11,667 nt of DNA from a bacterium (GTDB taxonomy: Bacteria > Patescibacteriota > Minisyncoccia > Phycocordibacterales > 2-02-FULL-43-11): the NCBI GenBank assembly GCA_021814895.1, contig JAKAHN010000011.1, forward strand, positions 1-11,667. Direction: 5' to 3'. Positions 1,742-11,667 of the stretch are shown here, in pieces. Each line of letters opens with the position of its first letter. Position 1 is the stretch's first letter. The notes beneath the pieces were generated by a model. That model was not told where the DNA came from. It saw only the letters and a list, made by a program, of their open reading frames with translations, and did not search any database. The position numbers and the translations under genes are program-made.

Positions 1742-3970
1742 ATGGACAATCAAAATTTAGATCAACCTATTGCGGATAATTCAGCGCCAACAATACCAGA
1801 ACCAAAAATAAAGAAGACCGGGCTTTTGATCCCGATTATTTTTGGGGCAATGGTTATTGTCGTAGTCGTCGTTTATTTTTTTATTCCTAAATCAGGTCAA
1901 GACTTTATCAAAAAAACCGCCGAAGATATATATAAGCCGGCGGTTGCGTTTGCTTCTAGATTTGCGACATATGAAGAAATTCCCGTGAGCGTAACGCCAA
2001 AAGTCCCGGTTTATACCGTGAGAAAGGATTTAAGCAATGTTGCCAATGCAGATGATTTTACTTTTTCCACAGATGCAAAAAATTTGCTAATAAAAAATGC
2101 TTTCGTAGTAAGTCCCGGTTACAATGCCGAATTCTACCCGCTTTATGAATCAAATCGATATCGTTATATACCAAGCTTTATCACTACCGATTCAATACTT
2201 CATAATTACCATCTAGTGTTTGATTTTCTGCTTAAACAATTGGAAGAGCAAAAACTTGCGGTAGAATTAAAAAATCTTAATGCCAGTATGCTTTCTGAAG
2301 CCCAAAGTCAGTATAATAGTCTGAAAGGAACTGAATGGGAAAATGCCGCTAAAAGAAATGAGGGATTTTTTGCAGTAGGTAGCAAGCTATTAGACCCGTC
2401 GGTAAATATACCGTCCGTGGTTCAAAATGAAGTCAATCAAGAATTGGCGTTAATTGATGCGCATCAGGGTATAACTGTTTCTCCGATTATGAATATCGGT
2501 AGCGACGCCAATATTCTTGATGCTCTAAAGGAAGATTACTCTCAATACATTCCAAGAGGACATTATGACAAAACTGACCAAATGAAAGCTTATTTCAAGT
2601 CAATGATGTGGTATGGCAGATTGACTTTTCGTTTGAAAAACGATGATGAAATAAGATCTGGAATTCTGATTACATTGGCTTTGAACAAGGATGCCAATAA
2701 AACCAGTTGGAATAAAATTTATGAACCAATAAATTTCTTTGTTGGCAAAAGTGACGACATAACTTACTACCAATTCAAAGATTTGGTTCAGCAAGTTTAT
2801 GGCGACAATGCTACGTCCCAAACAGTTTCTTCTGACAAGAGCAAATTTACCGCTTTTGTTGAAGCTACAAAAACACTTGAGCCACCACAGTTGAATTCAA
2901 TACCGATTTTTAATGCGTCAATCCAACAAGATAGAGAAAAAGAAATAAAAGGTTTTAGATTTATGGGGCAACGATTCACAATAGACGCTTCTGTGTTCCA
3001 AAGACTCGTTGATAGAGAAATTCCCTATAGAATGTTGCCGAAAGGTTTGGATATTCCAGCGGCCTTAGGCTCAAAGGAGGCACTAAATATTTTGACCGAG
3101 ATGGGGGAAACAAAATACGATAAGTATTCAGAAAATATGTCTAAGATGCAGACATACTTGGCTGGTTTGCCGACTGAAATTTGGACTCAAAATTTGTATT
3201 GGGGTTGGTTGTATCAACTTCGTCCGCTTATTGATTTGAAGACGATCGGTTATCCGACATTTATGCAGAATAATGCTTGGGTCAGGAAAGATCTCAATAC
3301 CTTTTTGGGAAGCTGGAGTGAGTTGAAGCACGATACAATTCTTTACGCTAAACAGGTTTATGCTGAAATGGGAGGGGGAGGCCCTGATGAAAAAGATGAT
3401 CGCGGGTATGTTGAACCAAATGTGTATGTGTATGCTCGGCTTGCTTCTCTCCTTAAAATGACAAGTGACGGTTTAGATGAACGCGGGTTGTTAACAGCAA
3501 CAATGAAGAATAACCTTAGTCAGATGGAACAATTGGCTGTATCGCTCAAAACCATATCAGAGAAAGAACTCAATAATGAAAGTTTGACCGACGGAGATTA
3601 TGAGCTAATTCGTTCCTACGGTGGACAATTGGAGCATTTTTGGCTTGAAGTTAACAAAGGCGATCAGGCATTCAAAGATTCAACAGACCAAAGAACTTAT
3701 CTGGATGAAAATCCGGCCGCTATCGTCTCCGATGTTGCCACTGATCCCAATGGTCAGGTACTGGAGGAAGGCACAGGAAAAATTTACGAGATTTATGTTG
3801 TGGTTCCGGTTGATGGGAAATTGAAGGTTGCCAAAGGCGGAGTTTATTCTTACTACGAATTTCCTTGGCCATTGTCAGACAGGTTAACTGATAAAAAATG
3901 GCGAGATATGCTTAATGAGAGCCCGGCTCCTCAATTGCCAAGCTGGACGAGCGCGTTCGTGTCGCAATAA
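1742..3970 (+). CDS. Membrane-anchored DUF3160 family protein
   Basis: A 742-residue protein. A short cytoplasmic N-terminus precedes one transmembrane segment (about residues 26-48, rich in I and V), so nearly all of it should be outside the membrane. The large domain matches the DUF3160 pattern as I know it: FITTDSILHNYH with D150, H154 and H157, RGHYDKTDQMKAYFKSMMWY starting at R272, NLYWGWLYQLRPLI around 484, and WSELKHDTILYAKQ starting at W525. The biochemical role of DUF3160 is unknown. The charged and histidine-rich conserved positions could suggest an enzyme or metal binding, but that is inference. The gene ends 5 bp before the CapA-type gene, so the two are almost certainly co-transcribed. 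There is no obvious Shine-Dalgarno before the ATG. The length and motif order suggest an intact gene. Confidence 0.85.
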   Translation: MDNQNLDQPIADNSAPTIPEPKIKKTGLLIPIIFGAMVIVVVVVYFFIPKSGQDFIKKTAEDIYKPAVAFASRFATYEEIPVSVTPKVPVYTVRKDLSNVANADDFTFSTDAKNLLIKNAFVVSPGYNAEFYPLYESNRYRYIPSFITTDSILHNYHLVFDFLLKQLEEQKLAVELKNLNASMLSEAQSQYNSLKGTEWENAAKRNEGFFAVGSKLLDPSVNIPSVVQNEVNQELALIDAHQGITVSPIMNIGSDANILDALKEDYSQYIPRGHYDKTDQMKAYFKSMMWYGRLTFRLKNDDEIRSGILITLALNKDANKTSWNKIYEPINFFVGKSDDITYYQFKDLVQQVYGDNATSQTVSSDKSKFTAFVEATKTLEPPQLNSIPIFNASIQQDREKEIKGFRFMGQRFTIDASVFQRLVDREIPYRMLPKGLDIPAALGSKEALNILTEMGETKYDKYSENMSKMQTYLAGLPTEIWTQNLYWGWLYQLRPLIDLKTIGYPTFMQNNAWVRKDLNTFLGSWSELKHDTILYAKQVYAEMGGGGPDEKDDRGYVEPNVYVYARLASLLKMTSDGLDERGLLTATMKNNLSQMEQLAVSLKTISEKELNNESLTDGDYELIRSYGGQLEHFWLEVNKGDQAFKDSTDQRTYLDENPAAIVSDVATDPNGQVLEEGTGKIYEIYVVVPVDGKLKVAKGGVYSYYEFPWPLSDRLTDKKWRDMLNESPAPQLPSWTSAFVSQ

Positions 3971-3975
3971 ACTGA

Positions 3976-5727
3976 ATGCGAAAAAAAATCAAATGGACAG
4001 CTTTACTTTTTGTTACTAGCCTCACCGTTACTGGTTTAGTCGGTTTTTATTATTTCCGTTACGATGTCGATGTTAATAAAGCAATTCAGGACAGTCAGCA
4101 ATATATAAAAAAAGATTTTTTAGATTTCTCTATCCAGAAAAAGAAAATTCCTTACTTGTCGGAGGAAGTTTCTTTTGTTGCTGTCGGCGACATTTCTTAT
4201 TCACGAGCAGTGGGAAGAATAGTGGCAAAACAGAAAGACATCAACTACCCATTTCTGAAAATATCTGATTATTTTAAAGGAGCAGATTTGGTCTTTGGTA
4301 ATTTAGAGACGCCGATTACGGAAGGACGAGAGATTTTTGATTTTGAGATGGTTTTTAGATCAGATCTGGGAACTGAGCAAGCCTTAAAACAGGCCGGTTT
4401 TTCTATTTTATCATTAGCCAATAATCATACGCCAAATTTTGGAGAGCAAGGATTAAAAGACACTTTCAGGTATCTTGATATGGCCGGCATCAAACACATC
4501 GGAGCTGGAATCAATGAAGAAGAAGCGAATCAGCCTGTTTATATTGAAAAAAAAGGAATAAAGTTCGCCTTTCTCGCTTACAATGATTCTGATGTTGTTC
4601 CCGCTTCATACGAAGCGGACAACAATCACGCGGGCACTGCTTTTATGAGGATTGATAAGATGACTGAAGCGGTAAAAATGGCAAAGCAAAAGGCTGATTT
4701 TGTAATTGTTTCCATGCATTCCGGAATTGAATATACGGGCAAGCCGGATAATTCACAGGTGAATTTTGCTCACGCGGCAGTTGATGCCGGAGCGGATTTG
4801 ATTATCGGACACCACCCTCATGTTGTGCAAATGGCGGAGCAATACAAAGGAAAGTATATATTTTATAGCTTGGGAAATTTTGTGTTTGATCAACCGCAAT
4901 CACAAAAAACAAAAGAAGGTTTGATAGTAAAAGTATTTTTCACAAAAGATGGAGTTAATAAGATTTCTTTATTGCCGGTAGTGATGGAAAATTTGGCTCA
5001 GCCGACAATGGCAAGTGGCGATGAAGCTAAAAGTATTTTGCAAGGATTAAAATTTCCTCTGGAAAATGAAGTCGCATATTTTTGGAATGGCGATACTAGT
5101 AGTTTCGAGCAGACTTCTCTACCTGTAATTTATAACGAACTCCCTATGGCCGAGACTTTAATTGCTAAAAATGAGCAGGCTGATTTGGATGGCAATTTGA
5201 TTGAAGAAACTTATTCTTTGGAGGGCGGTCAATTAACTATTGCCGAAAATTTAAAAATGATTTGGCAGTCTCCATCTGATTGGTGGATAGATAATTTTAT
5301 TCTTGTCGATTCCAATAACGATGGCGTTGGCGATATAAATTTGTCGGTTTGGAAGCCGGGTGATTTTGGTTCCTCAAAACCATTTTGGATAAAAGAAAAC
5401 GATATGAGCATAAAAAACCATTTTGTTGTTTTTGATCTTGTGAATGGCGTAATGAAACCGGTTTGGCAATCATCAAATCTTGGTGCGCCTAATTGCCAGT
5501 TTGCTTTTGCAGATCTGGATAACGATGGAAAAAATGATTTAGTTGCGATTGAGGGAAATTATTCCGATAAGCATGAATGCAAGGGAAATTATGTTGCCGT
5601 TTGGAAATGGAATGGCTGGGGATTTTCAAATGAATGGCGAAGTGAAAAAGGAAATTTTTCCAATCTTGAGATTGGAAAAATTAATGGAAAAAGTTACATA
5701 TCAGTCGATAATTCTTTTAACAAGTAA
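3976..5727 (+). CDS. CapA-type (PGA_cap) metallophosphatase with C-terminal FG-GAP-like region
   Basis: A 583-residue protein. One transmembrane anchor (about residues 8-26) is followed by an extracytoplasmic domain of the CapA/poly-gamma-glutamate synthesis family, which has a calcineurin-like phosphoesterase fold. Visible metal-site motifs in order are GD (71-72), GNLETP (108-113), NNH (149-151), HSG (248-250), GHHPH (278-282) and SLGNF (about 299-303). The C-terminal part has two DxDxDG-type calcium-loop motifs: DSNNDGVGD (445-453) and DLDNDGKND (513-521). These are typical of FG-GAP/VCBS beta-propeller repeats. CapA relatives are linked to poly-gamma-glutamate capsule export or surface polymers, but without capB/capC genes nearby the substrate here cannot be named. 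The gene follows the DUF3160 gene by 5 bp, suggesting a shared surface function. Its stop is doubled (TAATAA), and GC-rich vanX-like DNA begins at once. Confidence 0.88.
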   Translation: MRKKIKWTALLFVTSLTVTGLVGFYYFRYDVDVNKAIQDSQQYIKKDFLDFSIQKKKIPYLSEEVSFVAVGDISYSRAVGRIVAKQKDINYPFLKISDYFKGADLVFGNLETPITEGREIFDFEMVFRSDLGTEQALKQAGFSILSLANNHTPNFGEQGLKDTFRYLDMAGIKHIGAGINEEEANQPVYIEKKGIKFAFLAYNDSDVVPASYEADNNHAGTAFMRIDKMTEAVKMAKQKADFVIVSMHSGIEYTGKPDNSQVNFAHAAVDAGADLIIGHHPHVVQMAEQYKGKYIFYSLGNFVFDQPQSQKTKEGLIVKVFFTKDGVNKISLLPVVMENLAQPTMASGDEAKSILQGLKFPLENEVAYFWNGDTSSFEQTSLPVIYNELPMAETLIAKNEQADLDGNLIEETYSLEGGQLTIAENLKMIWQSPSDWWIDNFILVDSNNDGVGDINLSVWKPGDFGSSKPFWIKENDMSIKNHFVVFDLVNGVMKPVWQSSNLGAPNCQFAFADLDNDGKNDLVAIEGNYSDKHECKGNYVAVWKWNGWGFSNEWRSEKGNFSNLEIGKINGKSYISVDNSFNK

Positions 5728-8851: not shown

Positions 8852-9874
8852 GTGACTATTTTAGCATTAGTAATAGCACTACTGGTGATTATTTTTGTAA
8901 TTGCCGTTAGTGTTCATAATAATATGGATATTGAAAATGTTTCGCTTAAGACCAGGACGACACCAAAAGATTTTTTTATAAATCTTGGCGCGATTGTGGC
9001 GCTTTACACGGTTGTTGTCAGCTTGCTTAATCTTTTGTTTACAGTCATAAATGTCGCTTATCCGAAAGTTTCAAGCTATCCGGATTATTATGTCGGGAGT
9101 TCGTCCATTAGTTTTCCTGTAGCCACTTTAATGATTTTCTTTCCAATTTATTTTTTTCTTATGTGGCTTTTGGAAAGAGAATATTCTTCCATGCCCGAAA
9201 AGAAAAATTTGCCTATTCGCCGATGGCTTACATACATCACATTATTTATTGCCGGACTTACTTTGGCAATTGATTTGGTAACGGTTATCTATTATTTCAT
9301 TGACGGTCAAGAATTGACGATAGGTTTTCTTTTGAAAGTTCTTTCGTTATTTGCGGTTATATTTGTTGTGTTTATGTATTATATATCGGACATTCGTGGC
9401 AAACTAACCGCATCGTCTCGCAAGGTTTGGTCCGTGGTGGCTTTGGTAATCATTCTCGCTTCTATTATTTGGGGTTTTTCCGTTCTAGGTTCTCCGCGCA
9501 CCCAAAGACTTATGAGATATGATTCTCAAAAAGTAAGCGACCTTCAAAGTATTCAATATGAAGTTATTAATTATTGGCAAATGAAAGGTAAATTGCCGGC
9601 TAATTTATCAGCAATCAATGACAGTATTTCCGGTTACGTTACCCCGATTGACCCAGATACAAAAGAGGCGTATGTCTATAAAGTGATCGGTGAAAAAACC
9701 TTTCAATTATGCGCCGATTTTAATTTACCGACTGCGGTGAATAAAATAACCGTGAAAATTATGCCTGGAGAAAATTGGATTCATGATAAAGGTCAAGAAT
9801 GTTTTAACAGAACTATTGACGAACAGCTTTACCCACTTAGACCGGACCCAAAAATTTTAACGCCGGTTAGATAA
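8852..9874 (+). CDS. Polytopic membrane protein with DUF5671 core and C-terminal soluble domain
   Basis: A 340-residue protein starting at GTG. Six hydrophobic segments are visible at about residues 2-22, 42-68, 86-107, 125-150, 155-180 and 193-214. Segments 2-5 with their loops fit the DUF5671 family, for example TTPKDFFINLGAIVALYTVV, the RRWLTYITLFIAGL helix and FLLKVLSLFAV. Its function is unknown. After the last helix comes a soluble region of about 125 residues (216-340). DLQSIQYEVINYWQMKGKLP, then TPIDPDTKEAYVYK and FQLCADF, recall the C-terminal domain of type II secretion/pilin-like proteins. That comparison is by eye and tentative. It probably faces the outside if the N-terminus is cytoplasmic and there are six helices, although six helices would return the chain to the starting side, so the first segment might be a cleaved or re-entrant signal. 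No operon partner is evident. Confidence 0.8.
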   Translation: MTILALVIALLVIIFVIAVSVHNNMDIENVSLKTRTTPKDFFINLGAIVALYTVVVSLLNLLFTVINVAYPKVSSYPDYYVGSSSISFPVATLMIFFPIYFFLMWLLEREYSSMPEKKNLPIRRWLTYITLFIAGLTLAIDLVTVIYYFIDGQELTIGFLLKVLSLFAVIFVVFMYYISDIRGKLTASSRKVWSVVALVIILASIIWGFSVLGSPRTQRLMRYDSQKVSDLQSIQYEVINYWQMKGKLPANLSAINDSISGYVTPIDPDTKEAYVYKVIGEKTFQLCADFNLPTAVNKITVKIMPGENWIHDKGQECFNRTIDEQLYPLRPDPKILTPVR

Positions 9875-9902: not shown

Positions 9903-10004
9903 ATGAACGAATACGATCATTATAAAATTGAAAAAAGTGGCCCGAACAAATTTTGGTTACAAAACTTGAACGGGCAAGCAGAAAATAGTTATGAAGGATT
10001 ATAA
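9903..10004 (+). CDS. Possible 33-residue ORF overlapping the leuS start
   Basis: ATG 9903 opens a 33-codon frame (MNEYDHYKIEKSGPNKFWLQ, then NLNGQAENSYEGL) that ends at TAA 10002-10004 and overlaps the leuS start by 14 nt in another frame. The composition is protein-like, with several aromatic and charged residues, and it could be a small conserved protein or a truncated remnant of one. It lacks a recognisable domain and a ribosome-binding site. It also contains the hairpin at 9940-9975, so it may instead be untranslated leader of leuS. I cannot decide between these options from sequence alone. Confidence 0.3.
   Translation: MNEYDHYKIEKSGPNKFWLQNLNGQAENSYEGL
9940..9975 (+). other. Imperfect hairpin in the leuS leader
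   Basis: GCCCG (9940-9944) pairs with CGGGC (9971-9975). Inside, CAAATTTTG pairs with CAAAACTTG with one mismatch around a GTTA loop. The structure ends 15 nt before leuS ATG 9991. TATAAA at 9921-9926 could be a -10 that starts the transcript just ahead of it. It may influence leuS translation or be incidental to the small ORF. Confidence 0.35.
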
Positions 10005-11667
10005 CCATAAACAAATCGAAAAGAAGTGGCAAGATATATGGGCAAAAAAGAAGATTTTCTTGGCTGACGATAAATCAAAAAAACCAAAATTTTACGGCCT
10101 AATTGAATTTCCGTATCCTTCGGGCGAAGGTCTTCATGTCGGGCATATTCGTTCTAATACAGCGATGGACGTGATTTCGCGCAAAAGGCGGATGGAAGGC
10201 TTCAATGTTCTTTATCCGATTGGTTGGGACGCTTTTGGCTTGCCTACCGAAAATTATGCTATAAAAACCGGTATTCATCCGACTATTGTCACCAAGAAAA
10301 ACACGGATACCTTCCGCAAACAATTAAAAGAACTCGGTTTTTCTTTTGATTGGTCGCGGGAAATAAATACCACTGACCCGAAATATTATAAATGGACACA
10401 ATGGATTTTTCTGCAATTTCTGAAACATGGACTGGCGTACAAAAAGAAGATGCCAATAAACTGGTGCCCGAAAGACAAAATCGGTCTGGCGAACGAAGAG
10501 GTGGTGGATGGTAAATGCGAGCGTTGTGGTACTCCGGTGGAGAAGAAAGACAAAGAGCAATGGATGCTTGCTATAACGAAATACGCCGATCGGTTGGATA
10601 AAGATTTGGACAGCGTAGATTTTTTGGAAAAAATAAAAATCCAGCAGAGAAATTGGATAGGAAAATCCGATGGAGCTGAGATTGAATTCAAACTGAACAT
10701 ATCAACAAGAGTCTTGCCAAAAAAGATTTTAATTGGCACTAAAAACCCGGCAAAAATAAAAATGGTCAAGGATGCTTTTCCAAAAGCTCTCAATATAGAA
10801 TTTGTTTCACTTGATAATTTTCCGAATATTGACGATTCAAATCTTGTTGAGGGTGATGATTTTCGGGAAAATGCTCGCCGAAAATCCGAGTTTTATTTTA
10901 AAAAAACCGGTTTACCGACGATATCAACCGACCATATTTTGTGGGTTGAAAAATACCAAGAAAATAATGGTTTTATCGTTCACATTAGAAAATTAGCCAA
11001 TCCGAATTCTCCGAGAGCGACAGACCAAGAAGTCGGCGAGTGGGTTGAAAATTTTGTTAAGCAGAACGGCGAGTCAAAATCAGCTTTTCATTATGCCGTG
11101 TCTTTTACCGATAAAGGGGGCACAATTGATTTTGTTACCAAACAAAATGAATATATTTTACAAAGCGAAAAGTCTCCTAAAAAAAATGAGGGGTATGTTT
11201 TTGACAGGTATCTGAAAGATATTGAAACGGGTGAATTAAGAGTTGAACAGCAATTCCAAAAAGGGTTTGGGCGTTTCAACGAATTTGTAAACAATGAATT
11301 TTTACGTCTATTTTCTGAACAAAAAATCAAAGTTTTTACGACTAGGCCGGACACACTCTTCGGAGCGACTTATCTCGTGCTAGCGCCGGAACATCCTTTT
11401 ATAACTCACAACTCACAACTTACAACTAATAACGAAGAAATTACAAAATATATAAAGCAAGCAAAGGAGAAAACAGAAATGGAGCGGACAGAAGAGGAAA
11501 AAGAAAAAACCGGCGTGGAGTTGAAAGGAATAAAAGCTATAAATCCGGCTAACAACGAAGAAATTCCGGTTTGGATTGCCGATTATGTCTTGGCAGATTA
11601 TGGCACGGGTGCCATTATGGCTGTGCCGGCGCACGATGAACGCGATTTTCAATTTGCCAAGAAATAT
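9991..11667 (+). CDS. leuS: Leucyl-tRNA synthetase with a large insertion in the CP1 editing domain (C-terminus beyond the window)
   Basis: Class I synthetase that charges tRNA-Leu. 559 codons are visible and the frame is open to the window end. Order: KQIEKKWQDIWAKKK; the HIGH-type motif HVGH (49-52) in FPYPSGEGLHVGH; GWDAFGLPTENYA (W79 onward); the zinc-ribbon-like NWCPKD and CERCGTPVE; and QQRNWIGKSDGAEIEFKL, ending near residue 235. Ordinary LeuRS then crosses a loop of only a few residues to the threonine-rich editing motif. Here that motif (KIKVFTTRPDTLFGATY) resumes at residue 445, about 200 residues late. CP1 then continues normally: IPVWIADYVLADYGTGAIMAV and the HDERD motif with its editing aspartate. 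Editing residues are therefore present. KMSKS and the anticodon domain lie outside the window. ATG 9991 overlaps the 33-residue ORF by 14 nt. No frameshift or stop interrupts the insertion. Confidence 0.97.
   Translation, partial: MKDYNHKQIEKKWQDIWAKKKIFLADDKSKKPKFYGLIEFPYPSGEGLHVGHIRSNTAMDVISRKRRMEGFNVLYPIGWDAFGLPTENYAIKTGIHPTIVTKKNTDTFRKQLKELGFSFDWSREINTTDPKYYKWTQWIFLQFLKHGLAYKKKMPINWCPKDKIGLANEEVVDGKCERCGTPVEKKDKEQWMLAITKYADRLDKDLDSVDFLEKIKIQQRNWIGKSDGAEIEFKLNISTRVLPKKILIGTKNPAKIKMVKDAFPKALNIEFVSLDNFPNIDDSNLVEGDDFRENARRKSEFYFKKTGLPTISTDHILWVEKYQENNGFIVHIRKLANPNSPRATDQEVGEWVENFVKQNGESKSAFHYAVSFTDKGGTIDFVTKQNEYILQSEKSPKKNEGYVFDRYLKDIETGELRVEQQFQKGFGRFNEFVNNEFLRLFSEQKIKVFTTRPDTLFGATYLVLAPEHPFITHNSQLTTNNEEITKYIKQAKEKTEMERTEEEKEKTGVELKGIKAINPANNEEIPVWIADYVLADYGTGAIMAVPAHDERDFQFAKKY
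10696..11322 (+). other. Ham1/RdgB-like domain inserted in LeuRS CP1 (residues about 236-444)
   Basis: About 209 residues separate the two halves of the CP1 entry in place of a short loop. The insert aligns by eye with the Ham1/RdgB family of non-canonical purine NTP pyrophosphatases (house-cleaning of ITP/XTP). KILIGTKNPAKIK carries T250, N252 and K255, like TGNxxK. IEFVSLDNFP follows, then FRENARRK (E293, N294), like FxENAxxKA. KTGLPTISTDHILWV carries D314 at the second position of DDSG. SAFHYAVSF resembles RFHCVLVYL, and EGYVFDRYL (D405) stands where GGFGYDPIF is expected. Departures are the loss of the first Asp of DDSG (T313), the loss of its Gly, and no clear SHR motif near the end. The fold looks Ham1-like, but whether it hydrolyses nucleotides is uncertain. 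Confidence 0.7.
11403..11433 (+). repeat. Heptamer tandem repeat inside leuS (AACTCAC x2, AACTTAC, AACTAAT)
   Basis: Four consecutive 7-nt units run AACTCAC, AACTCAC, AACTTAC, AACTAAT and end with AAC. They encode a polar linker (THNSQLTTNN) after the editing motif, in a loop region of CP1. The same AACTTACAAC word occurs after the DUF5671 gene, so the linker probably arose from the dispersed repeat. Confidence 0.6.

Follow-up and report, generated by a model that had tools for sequence, protein, structure and literature searches.

A Ham1-like domain inside the editing domain of a patescibacterial leucyl-tRNA synthetase is one of several kinds of module inserted into this enzyme

The contig studied here (JAKAHN010000011.1 of assembly GCA_021814895.1; 11,667 nucleotides, referred to as the window) ends within leuS, the gene for leucyl-tRNA synthetase (LeuRS), of a member of the Patescibacteria. 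Inserted into the editing domain (CP1) of this LeuRS is what profile matches and a predicted structure identify as an entire domain of the Ham1 fold, from a distinct subfamily that we named Ham1a. The insert is not an isolated occurrence: modules of several kinds are present at several LeuRS sites in the window's order and in the phylum. We favour, with slightly better than even confidence, the explanation that Ham1a is a nucleotide pyrophosphatase module of shifted specificity and one member of a limited group of hydrolases that would have been docked repeatedly on LeuRS. A preliminary description, made from the sequence alone, had reported an insert of 209 residues in a single open frame, and the open reading frame and motif positions showed its coordinates to be exact. 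The features of the leuS gene are the following.

9991..11667, plus strand: leuS, N-terminal 559 residues of LeuRS (open reading frame with TIGR00396 and PF00133 matches), cut off by the contig end shortly ahead of insertion site C.
9991..10695, plus strand: N-terminal catalytic part of LeuRS, ending with GKSDGAEIEFKL (PF00133 and TIGR00396 matches).
10135-10146, plus strand: HVGH, the HIGH-type motif of LeuRS (from the sequence).
10660-10695 (residues 224-235), plus strand: GKSDGAEIEFKL, the last LeuRS motif before the insert.
10696-11322 (residues 236-444), plus strand: insert of 209 residues, with the Ham1-like domain at about 10720-11316 according to the profile match.
10738..10755, plus strand: TKNPAK, the TxNxxK motif, present in 11/11 Ham1a homologues.
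10858..10884, plus strand: DFRENARRK, the xENAxxK helix; the Glu of ENA is present in 8/11 Ham1a rows.
10906..10932, plus strand: TGLPTISTD; its last residue, an Asp present in 11/11, corresponds in the alignment to the second Asp of ADDSG of Escherichia coli RdgB (1k7k).
11323..11667, plus strand: resumption of the editing domain (CP1), with KIKVFTTRPDT (from residue 445) and YGTGAIMAVPAHD.

The editing-domain family PF13603 was matched in two stretches, the best of which begins at profile position 19 (residue 442), which places the insert inside this family. L010, a relative that lacks the insert, has no more than a few residues between the two LeuRS motifs that flank it in the window. HVGH, TTRPDT and YGTGAIMAVPAHD were all found in the window, while KMSKS lies on contig C15, which by inference belongs to the same gene (see below). 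The truncated window LeuRS scored 506 bits with TIGR00396 (cut-off 548.4 bits). The G+C content of the insert is 35.2%, compared to 40.2% in the preceding and 41.7% in the following LeuRS part, a difference too weak to use.

When searched alone, the insert matched the Pfam family PF01725 (Ham1p_like) at 1.1e-7 or, with its ends chosen differently, at 9.6e-8, in which case the score was 32.6 bits, above the Pfam cut-off of 22.5. In a Pfam scan of the whole protein the Ham1 domain was not visible. The NCBIfam XTP/dITP diphosphatase profile (for xanthosine and deoxyinosine triphosphates) also matched the insert (2.2e-9), but the equivalog cut-offs were missed by far, with 36.9 vs 234 bits for PRK14822 and 27.8 vs 145.35 bits for TIGR00042. 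AlphaFold2, run on eight sequences, gave a model of the insert with a predicted local distance difference test score of 89.9 and a predicted template modelling (TM) score of 0.83. In a Foldseek search of this model against the PDB, all 46 matches at E<=1e-3 were Ham1/inosine triphosphatase (ITPase), KomBC or Maf structures. They included Staphylococcus aureus Ham1 (4bnq_A; TM 0.74/0.78), E. coli RdgB with inosine triphosphate (ITP) (2q16_B; 0.71/0.75), the Ham1/ITPase structure 3tqu, the KomBC chains 9v0g_A, 8zsg_E and 9xvc_A, and YhdE, which we take to be a Maf protein. Together with homologues found in other genomes, these results bear out the earlier reading, in which a domain resembling Ham1/RdgB has been grafted onto LeuRS at the base of its editing domain.

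All four signature motifs named in that description were present. Its view that DDSG and SHR are incomplete held for DDSG, which keeps the second Asp, but not for SHR, which is absent altogether. TxNxxK and the Asp aligned with the second DDSG Asp of RdgB were found in 11/11 Ham1a sequences, whereas SHR is lacking in 11/11 Ham1a and likewise in six embedded and three stand-alone copies of a second group, Ham1b. As SHR is also missing from the stand-alone Ham1b genes, its loss is not a result of embedding as such; NHR stands at the matching place in two stand-alone Ham1 proteins (L008 and L067). In E. coli RdgB, mutation of K13 abolishes ITP hydrolysis and N10A leaves 30% (accessible text of PMC8893687), and SHR is described as part of the ITPase specificity pocket in the portion of PMC5075207 at hand, where ITPase is also given as a homodimer. 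The retained TxNxxK and Asp together with the missing SHR make the triphosphate/metal end of the active site look preserved and the base pocket changed. The Ham1a alignment (nine rows) has 46 invariant columns out of 205. In six pairs (five Ham1a, one Ham1b), the proportion of nonsynonymous differences (pN) was 0.20-0.31 vs 0.69-0.84 for synonymous ones (pS), measured on stretches that take in a few flanking LeuRS residues and with synonymous change saturated. Of the roles suggested in the preliminary description (nucleotide sensing, control of editing or a degenerate insert), mere degeneracy is disfavoured by this conservation, and the lack of SHR speaks against an ordinary enzyme for ITP/XTP cleaning.

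The distribution of Ham1a was determined with a profile, A1, built from nine sequences. In 397 genomes of the window's order, Ham1a was detected in nine at E<=4.4e-100, eight times within LeuRS frames and once as a separate gene. The Ham1a-bearing LeuRS frames measure 566 residues in the window, where the contig ends, and 1005-1339 residues in the others. The separate gene, in genome G094 (L066), is a frame of 219 residues that ends about 30 bases upstream of leuS. In a phylum sample of 341 genomes, the window's genome and G399 alone had Ham1a at E<1e-70, both in LeuRS. A scan of a genome collection returned six carriers again, one new carrier (L065) and three weaker matches (L067-L069). In total, 11 Patescibacteria carry Ham1a, ten of them within LeuRS and one free-standing beside leuS. 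The search for the same insertion elsewhere, which the preliminary description had proposed, thus recovered the same LeuRS-Ham1 architecture in other genomes, and for this architecture an artefact of the present assembly was ruled out. That assembly error or contamination produced the insert is a negligible possibility: the genome's contamination is given as 7.63% and the contig ends inside leuS, but the frame is uninterrupted and the architecture recurs. A phage origin was also considered and rejected, as no relative of the insert was found in viral contigs and no PHROG was found for it; the G094 homologue gave one weak hit (E 0.05).

A quite different explanation would be that the sole ITP/XTP house-cleaning enzyme of the genome was moved into LeuRS for economy and works there independently. 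In its favour, a PF01725 search of 10 carrier genomes revealed no Ham1 except the embedded ones, although divergent copies could be missed: this search overlooks most Ham1a copies, while it detected canonical Ham1 in 14/14 control genomes. The separate G094 gene, a sister of the embedded L064 copy (98/97 in the Ham1 tree), further shows that the domain can stand alone. However, SHR is absent and the NCBIfam ITPase cut-offs are far off. Moreover, any Ham1 at E<=0.001 was found in just 22/397 genomes of the order by the A1 profile, which may miss canonical copies, so that ITP cleaning seems mostly dispensable there. We therefore regard such a fusion as very unlikely.

Ham1a occupies three different LeuRS sites. 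Six copies lie at site B (window, L060, L061, L062, L064 and L065), three at site A (L044, L047 and L063) and one at site D (L152). Ham1b is embedded at site B in L057, L083, L087, L152, L153 and L191 and occurs as separate genes in L009, L082 and L085. In the LeuRS tree, L057 and L083/L087, hosts of Ham1b at site B, do not form sister branches. In the Ham1 tree, the site-B copy of L061 and the site-A copy of L047, both from genus g32, are sisters (99/99). In the LeuRS tree (FastTree), by contrast, L047 groups with L045, L048, L106 and L107, far away from L061, which groups with L060. The L047 LeuRS is a mosaic, with a body nearer to L045/L048 and with ~60 final columns that are 90% like those of L060, from the same genus; the gene downstream of L047 leuS is 99% identical to that of L060. 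Sister Ham1 domains on distant backbones, one of them a mosaic, would fit a module that stayed or returned while the LeuRS backbone changed. The L045, L047 and L048 clade (and L106) was also conspicuous for an editing domain without TTRPDT, which is replaced by a TFSAHFEAF-type or other sequence; these LeuRS are possibly editing-defective or altered.

Ham1 is not the only module in LeuRS. We read 108 LeuRS sequences, most of them selected because their frames were long or broken, with the window and C15 counted separately; this reading and the LeuRS tree exclude L042 and L046, which share their genomes with L063 and L061. At least one module is carried by 89 of the 108. Counted as hidden Markov model hits, whereby the tandem in L041 counts as three and L191 was read apart, they comprise 71 Nudix, 20 serine-hydrolase, 10 Ham1a, five Ham1b, three DUF559 and three HAD modules. 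A strict Nudix box was present in 53/71 Nudix hits and a GxSxG-like string in 18/20 serine hydrolases, a count in which the L162 string is not the motif and the L161 motif was missed. Pfam assigned representative modules to PF00293 (Nudix), PF06821 (serine hydrolase), HAD_2 and PF04480 (DUF559), and two nucleotidyltransferase-like modules to PF10706/PF14907. Nudix modules lie mostly at site C and serine hydrolases at site B or D, and the Nudix, serine-hydrolase, HAD, DUF559 and nucleotidyltransferase-like modules share the same or nearby LeuRS sites with Ham1. The most extreme case is L152 (G399), a LeuRS of 1795 residues with five modules: HAD and Ham1b at site B, Nudix at C, Ham1a at D and a nucleotidyltransferase-like module near position 531-542.

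Several further inserts were recorded. DUF559 endonuclease-like domains are nested at site B in L049, L110 and L126 (PF04480 3.9e-35 for L049) and could point to a mobile origin. For the modules of about 100-130 residues in L050 (site B), L112 and L191 (site C), no Pfam family scored over the cut-off; a weak similarity (16 bits) was seen between those of L050 and L191, and the L163 module had no Pfam family either. A short insert of ~58 residues occurs at LeuRS position ~163 in L141, L145 and L147, and that of L141 is without a Pfam family.

As a less biased measure, with frame length as a proxy, we took a census of LeuRS frames in the order (handles G000-G147; 10/148 without a frame; the window's genome, G000, entered as 1524 residues, window contig plus C15). 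Frames of >=900 residues made up 63/138, those of 700-899 residues 65/138 and shorter ones 10/138. In the rest of the phylum (153 genomes, 11 without a match and three matched ones belonging to the order), frames of >=900 residues were found in 35/139.

The window LeuRS itself may carry more than one module. The best match in the same genome for its missing C-terminal half was contig C15 (L197, G000:C15, 1-2895), whose first frame of 965 residues is open at the contig start. It comprises a nucleotidyltransferase-like stretch (no Pfam hit; 33 bits against the L164 module when seven sequences were compared), a Nudix domain (5.9e-12), a serine-hydrolase domain (8.3e-16) and, with KMSKS, the C-terminal end of LeuRS. 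The gene that follows is a homologue of the gene 3' of leuS in 9/10 relatives (52-75% identity), L040 giving no match. L040 was the best-scoring hit for both the N-terminal part of the window LeuRS (83%) and the C15 C-terminus (69%), whereas L010 gave the top score for the CP1 end of the window and L061 that for the short piece that precedes site D. The two contigs do not overlap. To judge by these matches, the window contig and C15 probably encode a single LeuRS of ~1530 residues with four modules.

Two related synthetases served as controls. Valyl-tRNA synthetase (ValRS), matched in 57/60 genomes (one in two neighbouring pieces), had no module-size break in the matched part. For isoleucyl-tRNA synthetase (IleRS), a break at the same place was seen in 52/59 matched genomes, with frames of 1130-1280 residues; three were unbroken and the rest partial. 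The IleRS insert of the window's genome, the one that was read, is a histidine phosphatase domain (PF00300, 1e-34) between the two halves of the enzyme (L171, G000:C45, 1712-2269). A general feature of class Ia synthetases was thus dismissed, as ValRS lacks such breaks and IleRS has its break at one fixed place. LeuRS is not the sole synthetase with a nested enzyme; it is the variety of modules that sets it apart.

Modules also differ between close relatives. In genus g9, L097 has a Nudix module at site C and L026/L038 have none, while their LeuRS backbones are 81-100% identical in most 50-column windows. L040, from the same genus as the window, lacks Ham1 and carries a serine hydrolase at site D instead. 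That CP1 as a whole is a hypervariable cassette held only in part when 37 same-genus pairs were compared after removal of the inserts with approximate ends. Identity in the N-terminal part and in CP1 was 96/61% for L060/L061, 92/39% for L044/L063 and 93-95/58-59% for L033 vs three genus mates, but four close pairs (N-terminal part 92-99%) keep CP1 at 91-92%, and in several far pairs CP1 similarity equals that of the N-terminal part or is higher. Pairs with 75-85% identity in the N-terminal part had a median of 57-58% in CP1 vs 61-63% in the C-terminal part; taking all pairs together, conservation of CP1 is only a little below that of the C-terminal part.

Such turnover could mean that the modules are tolerated passengers, compact domains with neighbouring termini that recombined into permissive LeuRS loops and were kept without benefit. 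Gain, loss and differing modules inside one genus agree with this, as do the 65/138 LeuRS frames of just 700-899 residues in the order and the L050 and L112 inserts without a Pfam family. We nevertheless consider it unlikely. Active-site residues are conserved and pN is well under pS; the same few enzyme families recur, with Ham1a exclusively in or beside leuS; within a single genus, Ham1a is found in two distinct LeuRS backbones; and ValRS is free of module-size breaks.

In the favoured explanation, each module is most likely an enzyme tethered to LeuRS. As the triphosphate/metal end is kept and SHR is missing, Ham1a most likely cleaves a nucleotide-like phosphoanhydride, though not specifically that of ITP/XTP. 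Docked on LeuRS, it would probably remove a small nucleotide-type molecule there, such as a by-product, a damaged nucleotide or an inhibitor. The module set (Nudix, PF06821-kind serine hydrolase, HAD, Ham1b and nucleotidyltransferase-like) would have been inserted repeatedly, mostly in the CP1 region. LeuRS inhibitors are a possible selective pressure: according to the accessible text of PMC4307249, TM84, the toxic part of agrocin 84, acts as a mimic of leucyl-AMP, and there is a self-immunity LeuRS encoded on a plasmid. We further raise, tentatively and as a rather doubtful extension, that CP1 of Patescibacteria LeuRS is an interchangeable docking platform on which hydrolase cassettes are gained, swapped and stacked under changing selection, for example against agrocin 84-type inhibitors or for sensing infection. 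If so, LeuRS would be a self-protecting enzyme.

Several observations weigh against the explanation by a specificity-shifted, docked pyrophosphatase. Besides the missing SHR, the Glu of ENA is lost in 3/11 Ham1a sequences. The AlphaFold2 model of the LeuRS part was too poor to show how Ham1 packs on it. Three modules, the DUF559 endonuclease-like ones, fall outside the theme of nucleotide hydrolases. Finally, 388/397 genomes of the order are without Ham1a at E<=4.4e-100; this patchy occurrence and the gain and loss within genera, as in g9 and between the window and L040, imply that no single module is essential.

The main rival to this explanation is that the Ham1 domain acts as a sensor, binding a nucleotide without much or any hydrolysis and thereby switching LeuRS, comparable to KomB. 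KomB of the Kongming defence system binds dITP, as stated in the accessible part of PMC12948488. KomBC structures are among the Foldseek matches of the insert, the specificity pocket of Ham1a is altered and the domain is located in the editing domain. However, the same sites accept Nudix, serine-hydrolase and HAD modules, which are no obvious nucleotide sensors. PADLOC (2023 library) found nothing in the insert, which was thereby also rejected as a known defence protein; no search for KomA/KomC partners was made. Other modules gave weak PADLOC matches, to AbiEii (0.0032, L164) and DpdF (4.6e-5, L049). Overall, a sensor role appears rather unlikely to us.

Genomes in the window's order measure about 0.3-1.4 Mb, and an essential enzyme of such small genomes carries whole extra enzymes in its proofreading domain, which differ among close relatives. 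These LeuRS make it possible to ask concretely what leads streamlined bacteria to enlarge a component of translation with extra modules, with fidelity, nucleotide hygiene and pressure from inhibitors or phages as candidate reasons. For studies of domain insertion they are a collection of nested enzymes supplied by nature. They also hold a warning for annotation pipelines: the Ham1 domain is hidden in a whole-protein Pfam scan and visible with NCBIfam.

Elsewhere in the window, the following gene lies upstream of leuS.

8852..9874, plus strand: neighbouring gene with DUF5671 (PF18920, 3.5e-21).

Homologues of this gene adjoin leuS, or Ham1 and leuS, in 6/20 relatives' loci, many of which end before that gene. 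Farther upstream, a DUF3160 protein (1742-3970; PF11369, 3.6e-236) is followed by a PGA_cap capsule synthesis protein (3976-5727; PF09587, 3.9e-76).

The preliminary description knew of no LeuRS with this architecture, and our literature search (with bioRxiv and most subscription papers outside its scope) agreed, yielding no description of a LeuRS with Ham1 or Nudix inserts among the papers listed. Each part is known; their nesting and repeated modular use were not found described in the literature searched. With RdgB/Ham1/ITPA (PF01725), the insert shares the fold (4bnq, 2q16, 3tqu), TxNxxK and acidic residues, but it differs by the missing SHR, the unreached NCBIfam equivalog cut-offs and its embedding in LeuRS. 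KomB of the Kongming antiphage system resembles it in fold, by the KomBC chains, and recognises a nucleotide (PMC12948488, accessible part); KomB acts with KomA and KomC, and no tRNA synthetase is involved. In cassava brown streak viruses, HAM1 is likewise associated with an enzyme of macromolecular synthesis, but in the accessible text of PMC8893687 it adjoins the polymerase at a polyprotein junction and is not nested. NCBIfam NF040702, an IleRS with an N-acetyltransferase that is known to us from the model name alone, also combines a class I synthetase with an extra enzyme domain, though both synthetase and domain differ from those in the window. Compared to bacterial LeuRS (TIGR00396, PF13603), the window protein has HVGH, TTRPDT and YGTGAIMAVPAHD, with KMSKS on its probable second half, but here the editing domain hosts an inserted enzyme. 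In an ECOD survey, PF13603 is classed as insertion-exclusive, with no instance in which it serves as host (accessible text of PMC13114784); unlike in that part of the survey's account, the LeuRS of the window is a case of PF13603 as host.

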